Assembly: GCF_012290005.1 (NCBI RefSeq)
Contig: NZ_JAAXMS010000011.1
Location: forward strand, 1-64,000
DNA: 64,000 nt
Source of the DNA: Crateriforma spongiae
GTDB lineage: Bacteria; Planctomycetota; Planctomycetia; Pirellulales; Pirellulaceae
Direction: 5' to 3'
Of this stretch, positions 27,926 through 62,216 are shown in pieces. A program made the position numbers and the translations under genes. The notes beneath the pieces are model-generated. The model worked only from the letters and a program-made list of their open reading frames with translations. It was not told the DNA's origin and did no database searches. How positions within the stretch are numbered: position 1 is the first letter of the stretch; the number at the start of each line of letters is the position of its first letter.

Positions 27926-28376
27926 CACCCTCCCTCCGGGAGGGTCGAGCCTTGGCGAGGGGAGGGCCGCATCATATTGCACACCCTGCCCGGAATCTCG
28001 TTCCCCGATTCCAACCCTCCCTCGACGTGAGCCGTGACGCGTCAGCGGCCGGGCCCCCACCCCACTTCATCCTCCCTCCGGGAGGGTCGAGCCTAAGCGA
28101 GGGGAGGGCTGTGCCATCCTTCACACCCTCCCCGGAATCTCGTTCCTCGATTCCGACCCTCCCGCGGAGCAGGAGGGTGCAATCAAACCATCCATTACCC
28201 TCCCTCGACATGAGCCGTGACGCGTCAGCGGCCGGGCCCCCATCCTTCACCCTCCCTCCGGGAGGGCTGCGCCTTAGCGAGGGGAGGGCCGCATCATCCT
28301 TCACACCCTCCCCGGAATCTCGTCCCTCGATTCCGACCCTCCCGCGGAGCAGGAGAGTGAAATCAAACCGTCCATC
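27926..28376 (+). repeat. Three tandem P-Q-S repeat units
   Basis: P modules (core CCCTCCGGGAGGG, a 6-bp stem, then GAGCC...GCGAGGGGAGGG) begin at about 27926, 28068 and 28248. Each is followed by a Q module (a GGAATC...GATTCC hairpin between CCCTCCC arms), and the first two also by an S module (GTGAGCCGTGACGCGTCAGC, containing the palindrome TGACGCGTCA). The spacing is about 142 then 180 bases. The array fills the gap between a glycosyltransferase gene and korA. I see no spacer structure of a CRISPR and no coding sequence. Confidence 0.85.
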
Positions 28377-33183: not shown

Positions 33184-33489
33184 TCACCCTCCCTCCACGT
33201 ACGTCGTGACGCGTCAGCGGCCGGGCCCCCACAAATTCACCCTCCCTCCGGGAGGGTCGAGCCTAGGCGAGGGGAGGGCCGCGTCGCATCGACAAACCGA
33301 ACCCGCGGCTAGCGCCCAGCGGCTCAAATCGTCGCCTTTCGCTCCCGCGAAAGTAGCGTCCGCCCCACCCCCAAACTCCCTCCCCGGAATCTCGTTCCTC
33401 GATTCCGACCCTCCCAAAAACAGGAGGGTGAATTCAAACTGTCCTTCACCCTCCCTCCGGGAGGGTCGAGCCTACGCGAGGGGAGGGCC
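33184..33489 (+). repeat. S-P-R-U-Q-P repeat block left of DUF559 copy A
   Basis: The order is S (about 33184-33230), P (33238-33280), R (CCGCGGCTAGCGCCC, about 33291-33330), U (CTTTCGC/GCGAAAG hairpin, about 33331-33366), Q (about 33375-33440) and P (33447-33489). The two P modules are 209 bases apart, the same as in the second block at 42.5 kb. The final P contains the stop codon of the DUF559 gene. Confidence 0.85.
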
Positions 33490-33966
33490 GTGTCTCCCTT
33501 CCCTACCTCTCTTCGCGGGCGACGCATGAACGCTGCGAAACCCGGATCCACCCAGCGCTCTCTTGCGAAACTCGTACGGAATTTCCAAGAAACTCGCGAT
33601 CGCGCGACATACCGCCTCAGCGTCCTGTTCGACCTCTTGGTCGGTGAACCGAATGGCTCGCCAACCCAAGCCTTCGATCGCTTTTTGCCTTTGCAAATCG
33701 GATTCGGCATTCTCGTCGTGATACCCGCCGTCGATTTCAACGACGAGTTGCTCGCTGACGCAAGCGAAATCCGCGATGAACGATCCGACCGGGTGTTCAC
33801 GTCGAAACTTGAGTCCGCACAACTGCTTGCCACGGAGCAAACTCCAAAGCAGCCCTTCGGAGGTGGTCGACTCACTTCTGCGCTGACGTGCATGATTGAT
33901 CAGACGCTGTTCGCTCGTCTTTCTCGCCACCGCACACCCTCCCCGCGTGAGTTCGCTGGAGCTCAC
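33472..33966 (-). CDS. DUF559 (Vsr-like) endonuclease-like protein, copy A, repeat-embedded
   Basis: Up to 164 residues. The core LLWSLLRGKQLCGLKFRREH, then SFIADFACVSEQLVVEIDGG and H83, is the DUF559 fold, related to Vsr-type PD-(D/E)XK nucleases; D66, E77, D79 and H83 are the likely metal-site residues. The frame opens at a GTG (33966) inside a Q-like repeat hairpin. A more natural start may be the internal GTG that gives MARKTSEQR. Its stop falls inside a P module, so the last residues are encoded by the repeat. It is about 89% identical in protein to copy B (42798-43271). The activity is a family inference; its DNA target is unknown. A long open frame on the other strand is a shadow. Confidence 0.8.
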   Translation of the reverse strand: MSSSELTRGGCAVARKTSEQRLINHARQRRSESTTSEGLLWSLLRGKQLCGLKFRREHPVGSFIADFACVSEQLVVEIDGGYHDENAESDLQRQKAIEGLGWRAIRFTDQEVEQDAEAVCRAIASFLEIPYEFRKRALGGSGFRSVHASPAKRGREGRHGPPLA

Positions 33967-34108
33967 TTCGCGACCCTCCCGCAGAGCAGGAGGGTAAAAT
34001 CAAACCGTCCTTCACCCTCCCTCCACGTGAGCCGTGACGCGTCAGCGGCCCGGCCCATACGAATTCACCCTCCCTCCGGGAGGGTCGAGCCTAAGCGAGG
34101 GGAGGGCT
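33935..34108 (+). repeat. Q'-S-P repeat block right of DUF559 copy A
   Basis: A Q-like module in which GTGAGTTC...GAGCTCAC replaces the GGAATC...GATTCC stem (about 33935-34000), then S (about 34024-34057) and P (34065-34108). P is about 619 bases from the P module on the other side of the gene. The remaining 34109-34175 holds nothing recognisable. Confidence 0.8.
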
Positions 34109-38239: not shown

Positions 38240-39424
38240 TCAATCGTTGCGGACACCGAATGTGTGCACGGTGATTTCGCGAAACGTCTGACCAGGACGC
38301 AGCAAAGTCGACGGAAATTTTGGCTGGTTGGGTGAATCGGGAAAGTGCTGCGTTTCCAAGCACAGGCCCTGTGGATTGCCCGTGTAAAGCTGGACGCCGG
38401 GCTGTGTGGTGTGGACCCTCATCGTGCGCCCCGACGATGGTTCGTAAACACTGGCGCACCTTCGCAAACTGCCATCCCAGCCCCGGATGACATAACAATG
38501 GTCGTAGATTCCGTAATCTGTTTCGCTTTGTCGCGAGCCCACCGCACGCGGCTGGCGAAAATCCATCGGCCCACCATCGACGGATCGGATCTCGCCCGTT
38601 GGAACCTTCTTTTCATCACCCACCAAGTATTGATCCGCCTGTAATGTGACGATGTGATCCGCGACCGTGGACTCTGTGTCCGCACCGGCCAAGTTCCAGT
38701 AAGCGTGATTGGTCAGATTCACAACCGTCGCCGCATCGGTCGTCGCCCGGTAATCCATGATCAGCCGCCCGTCGGATGTCACCGCGTAAGTCATCGTGAC
38801 TTTCAAGGTTCCGGGATAGCCCGCTTCGCCGTCAGGGCTGGTCAGCCGCAATCGCACGCCCGCTCGATCGGGCTTCGTGAATGGTTCCGCGGCCCACAAT
38901 TGGTTTTGAAAGCCCGTCTTGCCGCCGCCGTGAATGTGGTGCTTTCCCGCGTTCTTTGTCAGATCGTACGTTTCGCCATCAATGCGAAACGATGCACCGG
39001 AGATCCGGTTGGCGTACCGACCGACCACACTGCCCAAAAGCGGATGACCGGCCAAGTACTCGTCCAGCGTGTCACGGTGCAGCGTGATGCTGGCCCACTG
39101 GCCGTCGCGATCGACGGTCTCGACATTCTGCAGCGTGGCACCCAGGCTGATCACACTCGCCCGAACCGACGTACCGTTGTCGATGGTGAACCGCTGCACC
39201 CGCGTCCCGTCAGACATCGCCCCAAAGTCTTCAGCGGTCACGGTAACGGCGTTTGAACCGGACGATGGTTCATCGGCGACGCCGTGAGTTACCACTGCCA
39301 GCGTCACGAAACCCGCCATCGCAATCGCGGCCAACTGCAACGTGTTGGCCAAAACAGACGACCGTCGTGCAGGGCAGGGGACCGAGTGAATACGATCGGC
39401 AAATCGCAAAAAATTTAGACGCAT
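38240..39424 (-). CDS. Exported aldose 1-epimerase
   Basis: About 394 residues from the ATG at 39424 (MRLNFLRF). A hydrophobic stretch near 25-50 (LQLAAIAMAGFVTLAVV) suggests a signal peptide or anchor, so the enzyme acts outside the cytoplasm. The galactose mutarotase fold is shown by GRYANRISGASF, the first His pair in KHHIHGGG, NLTNHAYWNLAG with the general-acid His, and the catalytic Glu in GLCLETQHFPD. It interconverts alpha and beta forms of hexoses. It may serve polysaccharide breakdown outside the cell. The ASPIC lipoprotein gene follows on the same strand after about 55 bases. Confidence 0.88.
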   Translation of the reverse strand: MRLNFLRFADRIHSVPCPARRSSVLANTLQLAAIAMAGFVTLAVVTHGVADEPSSGSNAVTVTAEDFGAMSDGTRVQRFTIDNGTSVRASVISLGATLQNVETVDRDGQWASITLHRDTLDEYLAGHPLLGSVVGRYANRISGASFRIDGETYDLTKNAGKHHIHGGGKTGFQNQLWAAEPFTKPDRAGVRLRLTSPDGEAGYPGTLKVTMTYAVTSDGRLIMDYRATTDAATVVNLTNHAYWNLAGADTESTVADHIVTLQADQYLVGDEKKVPTGEIRSVDGGPMDFRQPRAVGSRQSETDYGIYDHCYVIRGWDGSLRRCASVYEPSSGRTMRVHTTQPGVQLYTGNPQGLCLETQHFPDSPNQPKFPSTLLRPGQTFREITVHTFGVRND

Positions 39425-39725
39425 GGAAGACGAACCGTGGCGGCGTAGGGTGCGGTCCGGATGAAAGACCGTTGGTGGATCGTTAATGGTACCAAAGCCC
39501 GCTGGCAATCATGGGATGCCTCAAAATTCGCCAGACATCCGGCGATACCGTGTCGGCTAAACTGAAGTGGTCGATACGCACCCATCGGCCCCGCCAATCA
39601 TCCCACCCAGCCAAGCTGAACACCCCTCCATGATTCGTTCAAACGGTTTCAAGAATCCTCGCTTGCTCCGCCAACGCGATACCTTCTCCCGCGCGTGCCG
39701 CATCGCGAAACAGAGGATTGGGACG

Positions 39726-41228
39726 ATGCCACCCGACCGTCGATTCACGCTGTTCGGTGGCTTGCTGATCATCTTTGGGCTTGCGCACCTCTCGGCCGAT
39801 CAACCGCAATGGGGCGACCCACGGACCCACAACTCGGTCTCCGACGAAACCGGTCTTCCCGATCAATTGGATCCCAACGCCGCAGGAAATTTGCGGTGGT
39901 CGATCGATATGGGCAATTCGTCCTACGGCACGCCGGTGATCGTCGGCGGCAAGGTCATCATCGGCGGCAACAACAGTGCCCCCATGGACGATCGATTCAC
40001 GGGGATCCGCGGGACGCTGTTGTGTTTGGATGAAGCGACCGGCGAATTGATCTGGCAATTGACCGTGCCGAAGTTGACGGACAAGAAGTACCTGGATTGG
40101 CATCTCGGCGGAATCTGTTCCGCGCCGACCGTCGTGGGTGACCATGTTTATGTGGTCAGCAATCGTGCGGAAGTCTTGTGTCTGGACATCAACGGATTGG
40201 CCGATGGGAACGACGGCCCGTTCGTGGATGAAGCCGCTTTCGTCGCTGGCAATTCCGAAGCGGCAATCACGCTAGCGGATCATGACGCCGATATCCTTTG
40301 GCGATATTCCATGCCCGAGCAATTGGATGTGCATCATCACGATGCCGCCCACAGTATCATCCTGGCCCATGGCGATCACCTTTACCTGAACACGGCCAAC
40401 GGCGTCGATCCGAAGCACAGTCACATCCCCCAACCCGATGCGCCCAGCCTGGTCGTGTTGGATCGTCACACCGGACGACTCTTGGCCACCGATGGTTTGG
40501 GGATCGGCAACGAGATCTTTCATTGCAATTGGTCGTCGCCCGTGGTCGCCAATGTCGACGGCCGCGAACGTATCCTGTTTTGCGGCGGCAACGGCATTTG
40601 TTACGGCTTCGAACCCCTGGTGTCTGACGCGAAGCCCGGTCGCGGGCGAACGCTTCGCAAAGTCTGGCAGTTTGATCTGGACCCCGGTTCGCCGAAGGAA
40701 CACGTCCACGACTTCGTCGGCAATCGGCACGAGAGTCCGACGAACGTGATGAGCCAGCCGGTGGTCGTGGACGATCGGTTGTTCGTCAGCAGCGGCGGCG
40801 ACATCTGGTGGGGAAAAAACGAAGCCTCACTCCAGTGCATCGATTTGTCGGGCACCGGCGACGTGACGAAAACCAACTTGTTGTGGCGATTTCCTCTGGG
40901 GCGTCACTGCAGTGCATCCCCGACCATCCACAACGGCTTGGTCTACATCGGTGATTTTGGACGCACGTTCTATTGCCTGGATGCCGACTCCGGTGCAACC
41001 GTTTGGGAACATCCGACGAAAGCAGAATTCTGGTCGACCGCTCTGGTCGCCGACGGCAAAGTCTACGTGGGGAACAAACGAGGATCGATGTTTGTTTTTG
41101 AAGCCGGTCGACAAAAGAATTTGATCAGCGAAACGCAGTTTGAGACCGGCCTGTACGGCAGCCCCGTCGCCTCGGGCGGCACGCTGTACATCTCCACCTT
41201 CAGCCGTTTGTTCGCATTCGCCCGCTGA
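39726..41228 (+). CDS. Exported PQQ-binding-like beta-propeller protein
   Basis: About 500 residues from the ATG at 39726, chosen because an AGAGG lies ten bases upstream and it puts a signal peptide (MPPDRRFTLFGGLLIIFGLA) at the end; ATG 39630 would give a 32-residue Arg-rich extension. Propeller blades repeat the pattern of a G-x-L/V-Y-x-G strand followed by L-D-x-x-T/S-G (LLCLDEATGELIWQL, LVYIGDFGRTFYCLDADSG, VYVGNKRGSMFVFEAG). No dehydrogenase Cys pair is seen, so it is probably a binding or scaffold protein, not a PQQ enzyme. It is divergent from the aldose-epimerase gene. Confidence 0.82.
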   Translation: MPPDRRFTLFGGLLIIFGLAHLSADQPQWGDPRTHNSVSDETGLPDQLDPNAAGNLRWSIDMGNSSYGTPVIVGGKVIIGGNNSAPMDDRFTGIRGTLLCLDEATGELIWQLTVPKLTDKKYLDWHLGGICSAPTVVGDHVYVVSNRAEVLCLDINGLADGNDGPFVDEAAFVAGNSEAAITLADHDADILWRYSMPEQLDVHHHDAAHSIILAHGDHLYLNTANGVDPKHSHIPQPDAPSLVVLDRHTGRLLATDGLGIGNEIFHCNWSSPVVANVDGRERILFCGGNGICYGFEPLVSDAKPGRGRTLRKVWQFDLDPGSPKEHVHDFVGNRHESPTNVMSQPVVVDDRLFVSSGGDIWWGKNEASLQCIDLSGTGDVTKTNLLWRFPLGRHCSASPTIHNGLVYIGDFGRTFYCLDADSGATVWEHPTKAEFWSTALVADGKVYVGNKRGSMFVFEAGRQKNLISETQFETGLYGSPVASGGTLYISTFSRLFAFAR

Positions 41229-42457: not shown

Positions 42458-42502
42458 CCCGCCATTCTAAGTGCCCTCCGCCCAACCAGCACCCACCCCC
42501 AA

Positions 42503-42794
42503 CGTAAGCCGCGACGCGTCAGCGACCGGGCCCACCCCACTTCACCCTCCCTCCGGGAGGGTCGAGCCTAAGCGAGGGGAGGGCTGCGCCGCATCGACAA
42601 ACCGAACCCGCGGCTAGCGCCCAGCGGCTCAAATCGTCGCCTTTCGCTCCGCGAAAGTAGCGTCCGCCCCACACCCAAACACCCTCCCCGGAATCTCGTC
42701 CCTCAATTCCGACCCTCCCGAAAAGCAGGATGGTGAAATGTAACTGTCCTTCACCCTCCCTCCGGGAGGGTCGAGCCAAAGCGAGGGGAGGGCC
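42503..42794 (+). repeat. S-P-R-U-Q-P repeat block left of DUF559 copy B
   Basis: S (about 42503-42533), P (42543-42585), R (about 42594-42632), U (about 42633-42670), Q (about 42679-42737), P (42752-42794). This is the same order and the same 209-base P-to-P spacing as at 33.2 kb. Confidence 0.85.
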
Positions 42795-42797
42795 GCG

Positions 42798-43271
42798 TCA
42801 TCCTTCCCTACGTCTCTTCGCGGGCGAAGCGTGAACGCTGCGAAACCCGGATCCCTCACACGACCTCTCCTGAAACTCGTACGGGATCCCCAAGAAACTC
42901 GCGATGCCATGGCAAACCGCATCAGCGTCCTGCTCGACCTCTTGGTCGGTGAACCGAATGACTCGCCAGCCCAAGCCTTCGATCGCATTTTGCCTTTGCC
43001 AATCGGATTCGGCATTCTCGTCGTGATACCCGCCGTCGATTTCCACGACGACTTGCTCGCTGACGCAAGCGAAATCCGCGATGAACGATCCGACCGGGTG
43101 TTCACGTCGGAACTTCAGTCCGCACAACTGCTTGCCACGGAGCAAGCTCCAAAGCAGCCCTTCGGAGGTGGTCGCCTCACTCCTGCGCCGACGTGCATGA
43201 TTGATCAGACGCTGTTCGCTCGTCTTCTTCGCCACCGCACACCCTCCCCGCGTGAGTTCGCTGGAGCTCAC
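42798..43271 (-). CDS. DUF559 (Vsr-like) endonuclease-like protein, copy B, repeat-embedded
   Basis: Up to 157 residues and about 89% identical to copy A at 33472. The metal-site candidates D66, E77, D79 and H83 are all kept, as are the FRREHPVG and VEIDGGYH stretches. The differences are scattered and lie mainly near the C-terminus (EFQERSCEG against EFRKRALGG) and are mostly point changes, so both copies look intact and not like pseudogenes. The frame opens at a GTG in a Q-like hairpin. Here a TGA stops the frame just before the P module, so this copy is seven residues shorter. It interrupts the polysaccharide locus between the epimerase and the dehydrogenase gene. Activity is inferred from the family. 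Confidence 0.8.
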   Translation of the reverse strand: MSSSELTRGGCAVAKKTSEQRLINHARRRRSEATTSEGLLWSLLRGKQLCGLKFRREHPVGSFIADFACVSEQVVVEIDGGYHDENAESDWQRQNAIEGLGWRVIRFTDQEVEQDADAVCHGIASFLGIPYEFQERSCEGSGFRSVHASPAKRRREG

Positions 43272-43755
43272 TTCGCGACCCTACCGCAGAGCAGGAGGGT
43301 GAAAACAAACCGGACTTCACCCTCCCTCCACGTGAGCCGTGACGCGTCAGCGGCCGGGCCCAAACTAATTCACCCTCCCTCCGGGAGGGTCGAGCCTAGG
43401 CGAGGGGAGGGCTGCGCCGCATCGCCAAACCGAACCCGCGGCTAGCGCCCCGCGGCTCACATCGTCGCCTTTCGCTCCCGCGAAAGTAGCGTCCGCCCCA
43501 CACCCAAACACCCTCCCCGGTATCTCGTCCCTCAATTCCGACCCTCGCGCAAAACAGCAGGGTGAAATGTAACTGTCCTTCACCCTCCACGTGAGCCGTG
43601 ACGCGTGAGCGGCCGGGCCCACCCCACTTCACCCTCCCTCCGGGAGGGTCGAGCCTAAGCGAGGGGAGGGCTGCGCCGCATCGACAAACCGAACCCGCGG
43701 CTAGCGCCCTGCGGCTCACATCGTCGCCTTTCGCTCCGCGAAAGTAGCGTCCTCT
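43238..43755 (+). repeat. Q'-S-P-R-U-Q-S-P-R-U repeat block right of DUF559 copy B
   Basis: Q' (about 43238-43300), S (43327-43361), P (43371-43412), R and U (about 43424-43500), Q (about 43507-43566), S (43586-43621), P (43630-43672), R and U (about 43680-43753). It extends copy A's right flank by one further unit without a gene. The rest of 43756-43813 is GC-rich and without a gene. Confidence 0.85.
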
Positions 43756-43813
43756 CCCGCGCGAACCCGGCACCCCGCGAACCCGCGACCTGCCCCACCC
43801 GTCACCCAAGCCC

Positions 43814-61805: not shown

Positions 61806-62216
61806 GGCCGGTGACGGGTGGGCCGGTGACGGGTGGGGACTGGGGGAGTCGGGGGCGGACGCTGCTCTCGCGGAGCGAAAGGCGACGATGTGAGCCGTTT
61901 GGGGCTAGCCGCGGGTTCGGGTGGTTGAGAGGTACGGCCCTCCCCTCGCTTAGGCTCGACCCTCCCGGAGGGAGGGTGAAGGAAGATGCGATTTACCCTC
62001 CTGCTTTGCGGGAGGGTCGGGATCGAGGGACGAGATTCCGGGGAGGGTGTTTCTGTGAGGAGCGGACGCTGCTTTCGCGGAGCGAAAGGCGACTTTGTGA
62101 GCCGCTTGGCGCTAGCCGCAGATTCGGGTTGTTGAGCGGTACGGCCCTCCCCTCGCTTAGGCTCGACCCTCCCGGAGGGAGGGTGAAGGATGTGGAGGGA
62201 GCGAAAGGCGACTTTG
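61806..62216 (-). repeat. U-R-P-Q-U-R-P repeat block and a 15-bp tandem repeat
   Basis: Two tandem copies of GGCCGGTGACGGGTG lie at about 61806-61835. Reverse-orientation modules follow: U (about 61852-61888), R (61889-61928), P (61936-61978), Q (61991-62049), U (62061-62098), R (62099-62130), P (62142-62185) and a partial U (62197-62216). P modules are 207 bases apart, close to the 209 bases of the forward blocks. The block lies between gmd and the ligase/TPR gene. Confidence 0.85.

Follow-up and report, generated by a model that had tools for sequence, protein, structure and literature searches.

Layout of the two blocks

The stretch of DNA analysed here (the window, 64,000 nucleotides of Crateriforma spongiae contig NZ_JAAXMS010000011.1) contains two blocks of hairpin repeats, each with one DUF559 gene, at 33184-34108 (block 1) and 42484-43411 (block 2). 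Both were present as a preliminary description, made from the sequence alone, had reported, and its positions, its spacings of 209 and about 619 bases and its protein identity of about 89% held. The P modules of block 1 start at 33236, 33445, and 34064 (spacings of 209 and 619), and those of block 2 at 42541, 42750, 43369, and 43628 (209, 619, and 259). With up to 3 mismatches, the 25-base core of P was found at 53 sites in the whole genome, and the reversed core pattern, used as the control, at none. The two window copies are the only DUF559 genes in the whole genome. A search of the window against Rfam gave no matches.

The P end is composed of TTCACCCTCCC, a loop, GGGAGGGT, a second loop of about 15 nt, and GGGGAGGG. 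Q and Q' are P-type ends in reverse complement; therefore, the actual units are P-U-Q, which is gene-less, and P-DUF559-Q', which bears the gene, and not the whole block from S to P, as the preliminary description had proposed. Each block holds one unit of either kind. S, R, and U are modules separate from the P/Q units.

In the first gene unit, the P end (CACCCTCCC-loop-GGGAGGGT, second loop, GGGGAGGG) lies at 33445-33488 on the plus strand, the DUF559 gene at 33472-33930 on the minus strand, and the inverted Q' end (CCCTCCCC, hairpin, ACCCTCCC-loop-GGAGGGT) at 33937-33996, also on the minus strand. The gene probably starts with the GTG at 33930, an in-frame upstream GTG at 33966 being possible. 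The adjoining gene-less unit consists of a P end (33236-33279, plus strand), the U interior (33280-33377, strand not assigned), which contains the hairpin CCGCGGCTAGCGCC... and is lacking at this site in the sister genome, and an inverted Q end (33378-33433, minus strand). A partial end, the S module (CACCCTCCCTCCACGT...GACGCGTCAGCGGCCGGGCCC; 33184-33233), and the third P (34064-34107), both on the plus strand, complete block 1. The second gene copy (42798-43235, minus strand) is placed between a P end at 42750-42793 (plus strand) and an inverted Q' end at 43242-43303 (minus strand). Ahead of it is a gene-less P-U-Q unit (42541-42738) that is also found in the sister genome, and past it an additional P-U-Q-S-P-U array (43369-43760). 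Elsewhere in the window, an array of gene-less P/Q units occupies 27926-28360, and further gene-less P/Q units are found at 61954-62190 (minus strand), 58973, and 63248.

The hairpins of Q (z = -3.5) and Q' (z = -2.9) folded better than shuffled sequences, and the effect for the P hairpin was weak (z = -1.3). Separately, U (33280-33377 and 42585-42681) was seen to carry a hairpin repeat of its own, GAACCCGCGGCTAGCGCC...GGCTCA, which occurs without P or Q in other planctomycetes (e.g. locus L056) and in the comparison with the sister genome G011.

The DUF559 protein

The two window proteins, 89% identical to each other, matched the PF04480 profile with E = 1e-32 for copy 1 (112.6 bits against a curated cut-off of 20.6). 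The catalytic residues D66, E77, D79, and H83, already listed and so numbered in the preliminary description, together with one later D, were invariant in 37 homologues. An AlphaFold (AF2) model with a pLDDT of 85.9 was closest to the DUF559 structure 3HRL (TM 0.87), followed by the homing endonuclease I-Bth0305I (3R3P, 0.76) and Vsr (1VSR, 0.43). By its residues and its predicted fold, the window protein belongs to the Vsr/EDxHD nuclease superfamily; the fold rests on a model and the nuclease activity is inferred. The DUF559 nuclease is under purifying selection, dN/dS between Stenotrophomonas orthologues being 0.04-0.28 where it could be computed.

Two further observations were made on the genes themselves. 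The reading frame of many DUF559 ORFs runs into the right-hand end and yields a recurring tail, SPPAPLPEAGRGE (e.g. L086, L087, L118, and L119). Several copies are broken by stop codons (G104:C1:242282-302813, G086:C1:7932252, and G021:C3:151305), and some of the broken copies adjoin intact, near-identical ones, as in families of mobile elements.

Relationship of the two blocks and the sister species

Block 1 and block 2 were 91.8% identical over 922 aligned bases, and the two gene units 92.0%, whereas each gene unit was only 87.5-87.6% identical to its orthologue in the sister species (G011). The sister has DUF559 at the cysK-dapA site, that of the first copy, and only gene-less units at the second site. 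Because the blocks are closer to each other than to the sister orthologue, and because the sister has no second DUF559, the two blocks are not independent and arose by duplication, transposition, or conversion within the lineage. In the order of events that we propose, the gene unit would have been duplicated about 9 kb away, into a pre-existing array, after the split from the sister species. The dN/dS between the two window copies was 0.22, and the protein has therefore been under constraint.

Six loci of the window genus were compared between G000 and G011 for empty sites. The differences were mostly changes of copy number in tandem arrays, so that the alignment of insertion sites, which had been put forward as a check, was not decisive in this genus; such changes need no enzyme. 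One gene-less unit absent in the sister lies among other repeats and has ragged borders. Apart from this, the sister DUF559 (L085, 7807-8229) has a TAG after the GTG start, ahead of the domain, and no start codon was found; it may be a pseudogene, or another start may be used. The alignment to the otherwise collinear sister genome breaks down at 39278-39793 of the window.

Inverted ends at DUF559 genes in other genomes

Each gene received the score of the best inverted repeat between its two 500-base flanks, and a score of at least 40 was regarded as strong. In a sample of 119 planctomycete genomes from the same family as the window, 39 of 59 DUF559 loci reached this score, compared with none of 26 HNH genes from those genomes and none of 181 other windows within the same loci (p = 5e-11). 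A scan of named genomes across phyla, whose 74 loci overlap in part with these 59, gave a strong inverted repeat at 47 loci and included Chloroflexi, Chamaesiphon, Pseudoxanthomonas, Stenotrophomonas, Caulobacterales, Sphingomonadales, and Gemmataceae. For 18 cross-phylum genomes together with the genus Stenotrophomonas, the count was 29/39. About one third of the DUF559 loci have no strong inverted repeat.

The ends are typically 40-50 nt long, such as AAAGCCCCTCTCCC-ACC-GGGAGAGGGGTTGGGGAGAGGGTA and ACACCCTCCCGCTCCGCGGGAGGGTCGGCCTCTCAGGGCCGGGGAGGGC. Their order of pyrimidine arm, purine arm, and purine arm was kept in 64 of 88 end arms and in none of 88 shuffled arms. Genomes with a standalone DUF559 held a median of 13 copies of a generic end motif, against 0 for all other genomes (Fisher p = 1e-7). 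The genome-level counts given here and below were not corrected for phylogeny. These results show that the architecture exists in many phyla, planctomycetes, Chloroflexi, and Proteobacteria among them, and is statistically associated with DUF559, not with the control genes.

Several features of individual genomes are recorded here. Five planctomycetes (G043, G089, G073, G039, and G056) have 16-49 copies of the motif and no standalone DUF559; the 49 copies of G043 are nearly identical to the E. coli consensus. At four Chloroflexi loci (L197, L198, L210, and L236), the orientation of the ends relative to the gene is flipped, with the second arm outside and the hairpin nearest the gene. Two candidate signals were not retained: a G-quadruplex, visible by eye in many ends, is not in all of them and is not claimed as a conserved feature, and the idea that a conserved T:G mismatch acts as a signal of the Vsr type was dropped, as it matches only one variant of the C-arm.

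RAYT (Y1) genes of the same genomes served as the positive control, and strong inverted repeats were found at 22 of 30 such genes from 14 genomes. None of the 30 carried a hairpin of the DUF559 type in the 14 genomes sampled, and RAYT was rejected on this ground as the mobiliser of the DUF559-type repeats. Furthermore, across 88 DUF559 loci the end sequence tracked the protein and not the genome (Mantel, 0/2000). The similarity of ends was 0.61 between different genomes whose DUF559 proteins were 60-80% identical, 0.77 for similar proteins within one genome, and 0.24, equal to the background, for proteins less than 50% identical within one genome. Because closely related proteins often come from related hosts, the contrast within genomes is the more reliable test, and it shows that the ends vary together with the nuclease subfamily in a single genome.

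Gene-less units and single palindromes

The genome G042 contains 354 end motifs, many of them in inverted pairs about 200 bases apart. Asymmetric subterminal bases, GCCTGCGG/GCCCGCGG at one end and AAGAGC at the other, are common to its 23 gene-less units (228-239 bp) and its two gene units (455 bp), with small variants in three units. The short units thus look like deletion derivatives of the gene unit; the sharing itself is shown. Overall, the units measure about 450-500 bp with the gene and about 100-235 bp without it. As a separate observation, the gene-less units of G042 (L290-L309) have one of three further inverted sequences outside the main hairpin, ending in TTGATATCCCTCTGGC, CACAATACTTCTGGC, or ACAAATCACTTCTGGC and combined freely between left and right; the gene units are without them.

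At a Stenotrophomonas site between two ORFs that we read, without annotation, as hppD and hmgA, the gene unit was present in at least 8 species, a single palindrome in 4, and no palindrome in more distant species. Both palindromes are complete at the occupied sites. Single palindromes are without the second G-arm. Within the genus, the cognate palindrome was found in 11 of 14 genomes with DUF559 and in 5 of 77 others (p = 3e-8). A second Stenotrophomonas site, in the sucD region, has DUF559 without strong inverted ends at 9 loci (L341, L344, L347-L349, L359, and L362-L364), and this gene is possibly an old or domesticated copy.

Polymorphism of presence and absence, and of pair and single palindrome, is thus shown at orthologous sites. 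The polarity is undetermined: the alternatives were a single palindrome or, in more distant species, none, and none of the polymorphic sites compared offered a clean de novo insertion with a target-site duplication. Every one of these sites could also be a loss through recombination between the two ends. Such loss alone would account for the polymorphic sites, but neither for the covariation of enzyme and ends nor for the way in which cognate gene-less units have spread.

The E. coli repeats and ycjD

Holder et al. (2015, PMC4666352) reported 23 copies of an intrastrand triplex motif (TM or TMECO, earlier called PIT elements) in E. coli K-12, found the motif in more than 260 genomes, and found neither a function nor a link to mobile elements. 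They noted that small parts are deleted in paired copies while the hairpin remains, and they cited an earlier study in which the E. coli PIT motifs had no promoter or terminator activity. Neither DUF559 nor ycjD is mentioned in that paper.

TMECO no. 9 is located 168 bp from ycjD, which is annotated as DUF559, in K-12 (L443, NC_000913.3 1351204-1351760). Recognisable ends were present on the downstream side of ycjD only; on the other side, an AT-rich palindrome, CACCTCATTCTGACA...TGTCAGAATGAGGTG, was seen, and no recognisable end. The profile search of this E. coli control gave no PF04480 match, despite the NCBI annotation and the presence of the motif in YcjD. Each pair of TMECO copies makes up a gene-less unit of about 101 bases, and these units have a common interior. 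Between alx and sstT, such a pair in K-12 corresponds to a single palindrome in strains GF131 and AVS0578; the two states differ by an indel of exactly 76 nt that lies between the two C-arms, in agreement with the remark in PMC4666352 on deletions that leave a hairpin.

The gene ycjD was found in 3365 of 5426 genomes. In a broadly spread sample, other matches to the motif numbered 5-13 where ycjD was present (42 strains) and 1-7 where it was absent (18 strains); 662 genomes had no match at all. This comparison is confounded by clade structure. The fabI-sapF interval was rejected as a clean empty site for ycjD, since strains without the gene have a different neighbouring operon there.

The arms of the window P module read CCCTCCC and its second loop is about 13-15 nt long; it does not meet the literal consensus CCCTCNCCCN3-6GGGNGAGGGN3GGGNGAGGG. 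Of 141 DUF559 loci, 11 had the literal motif at a distance of no more than 500 bp, and none of the HNH controls did. We consider it likely that the repeat beside DUF559 is the TM/PIT intrastrand triplex element of E. coli.

Discussion

The explanation that we favour, and regard as likely, is a system of tiny elements resembling RAYT/REPIN and built on a nuclease like Vsr and the homing endonucleases; cutting and movement are inferred, and neither has been observed. Each block of the window would be a cluster of REPIN-like elements, one member of which encodes the DUF559 nuclease between inverted structured ends, and the other members would be gene-less or single-palindrome derivatives. In an end, a C-rich arm and a G-rich arm enclose a loop, and a further loop or hairpin leads to a second G-rich arm, so that the end could fold into a hairpin or an intrastrand triplex. 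The nuclease may recognise its own ends, probably folded in single-stranded DNA during replication or repair, and may nick or cut them. Repair would then copy gene-bearing or gene-less units into or beside other such palindromes, and recombination between two ends would leave one palindrome. Recognition, cutting, and movement driven by DUF559 remain inferences.

The preliminary description had inferred that nuclease and repeats belong together as one unit, comparable to RAYT and REP except for the kind of enzyme, and this is supported; whether the unit is selfish or regulatory, both of which it had allowed, is not settled. The check that it proposed, whether DUF559 genes elsewhere are flanked by repeats more than other genes, came out positive, as they are so far more often. 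Of the observations that it said would refute the idea, homologues without repeats are a minority, exemplified by the second Stenotrophomonas site, and a single recent segmental duplication applies to the local pair only.

The strongest rival is a homing model, in which the palindrome pre-exists and has spread otherwise, and the DUF559 gene cuts an empty palindrome and is copied into it by repair; pairs would then be occupied sites, and single palindromes empty targets. In its favour, the closest fold after the DUF559 structure itself is the catalytic domain of a homing endonuclease, and orthologous sites have a single palindrome where relatives have palindrome, gene, and palindrome. However, the occupied site keeps two complete palindromes and so would be unprotected from cutting, gene-less pairs with a conserved interior have spread as well, and more distant species lack any palindrome at the hppD-hmgA site. 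We consider this model unlikely.

A passenger model, in which the repeats are moved by another enzyme or by local duplications and DUF559 is cargo or a host gene, also appears improbable. Some genomes do have many repeats and no DUF559, and the arrays of the window genus vary mostly by tandem copy number. Against it, DUF559 is the sole gene in units of 450-500 bp, the ends follow the nuclease subfamily within a genome, RAYT genes carry other repeats, and the association with DUF559 spans phyla.

Still weaker, and very unlikely in our judgement, is the view that DUF559 proteins are Vsr-like repair nucleases of the host and that the repeats serve neighbouring genes as terminators or other regulatory hairpins. 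For Caulobacter VsrA, which carries DUF559, a role in VSP repair and a link to ScmA have been proposed (PMC12907096), and the Stenotrophomonas palindromes resemble terminators. This model leaves unexplained the inverted flanking of the nuclease gene, the covariation of repeat and nuclease, and the gene-less copies, and the E. coli PIT motifs lacked promoter and terminator activity (study cited in PMC4666352). Finally, a recent segmental duplication that happens to include a nuclease gene is all but excluded: the two blocks are indeed a lineage-specific duplication, but the arrangement recurs with different sequences in dozens of genera of several phyla.

The favoured RAYT/REPIN-like system shares with RAYT/REPIN a single-gene unit between inverted hairpins, gene-less inverted pairs, single hairpins, and repeats that are cognate to the enzyme lineage within a genome. 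It differs in that the only gene of the unit, DUF559, has the PD-(D/E)XK/Vsr fold and not that of the Y1 HUH enzymes (PF01797), and in that the repeats are of another family, RAYT genes elsewhere in the same genomes carrying different ones. With TM/PIT it shares the order of C-arm, G-arm, and G-arm, the consensus being literally the same in E. coli and some planctomycetes, and inverted pairs and deletions leaving a hairpin have been described there (PMC4666352); the window version has a longer second loop and falls outside the literal consensus. The known DUF559 or Vsr-like nucleases (NGO0050 (3HRL), E. coli YcjD, and Caulobacter VsrA) have the same Pfam family, fold, and D...ExD...H...D pattern, but have so far been regarded either as mismatch-repair proteins or as proteins of unknown role. 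The EDxHD homing endonuclease I-Bth0305I is alike in catalytic fold and residue pattern, whereas the window unit has no intron, intein, or interrupted host gene, and its gene is flanked by inverted structured repeats. As in MITEs and insertion sequences, there are terminal inverted repeats, and dispersed gene-less copies share their ends with the gene-bearing copy; unlike them, the unit of about 450-500 bp has one nuclease gene of about 130 codons and no transposase of a known family, and no target-site duplication has been shown.

No association of DUF559 with repeats was reported in the titles or abstracts of the searched papers that name DUF559, and no link of DUF559 or ycjD to these repeats was found in the open literature searched, which does not include subscription journals or the original PIT papers, so that a prior report is not fully excluded.

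A bolder reading is that DUF559 proteins, including YcjD, mobilise a class of minimal mobile elements, about 450-500 bp long and bounded by TM/PIT ends, that is distributed throughout the bacteria; here we find the case for and against evenly balanced. The present findings join two questions, the role of DUF559/YcjD and the origin of the hairpin or triplex repeats in E. coli and hundreds of other bacteria, and suggest that DUF559 is the missing partner of a long-known repeat family without a function. They predict cognate pairs of enzyme and repeat, which can be tested directly in E. coli K-12, offer a concrete source for genomic instability hitherto attributed to triplex structure alone, and suggest a re-reading of Caulobacter VsrA, currently interpreted as a mismatch-repair enzyme. 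If the interpretation is true, an unrelated nuclease of the Vsr type would have adopted the RAYT/REPIN life style in a second independent invention, would possibly act on a folded hairpin or triplex, and would belong to some of the smallest autonomous mobile elements known.
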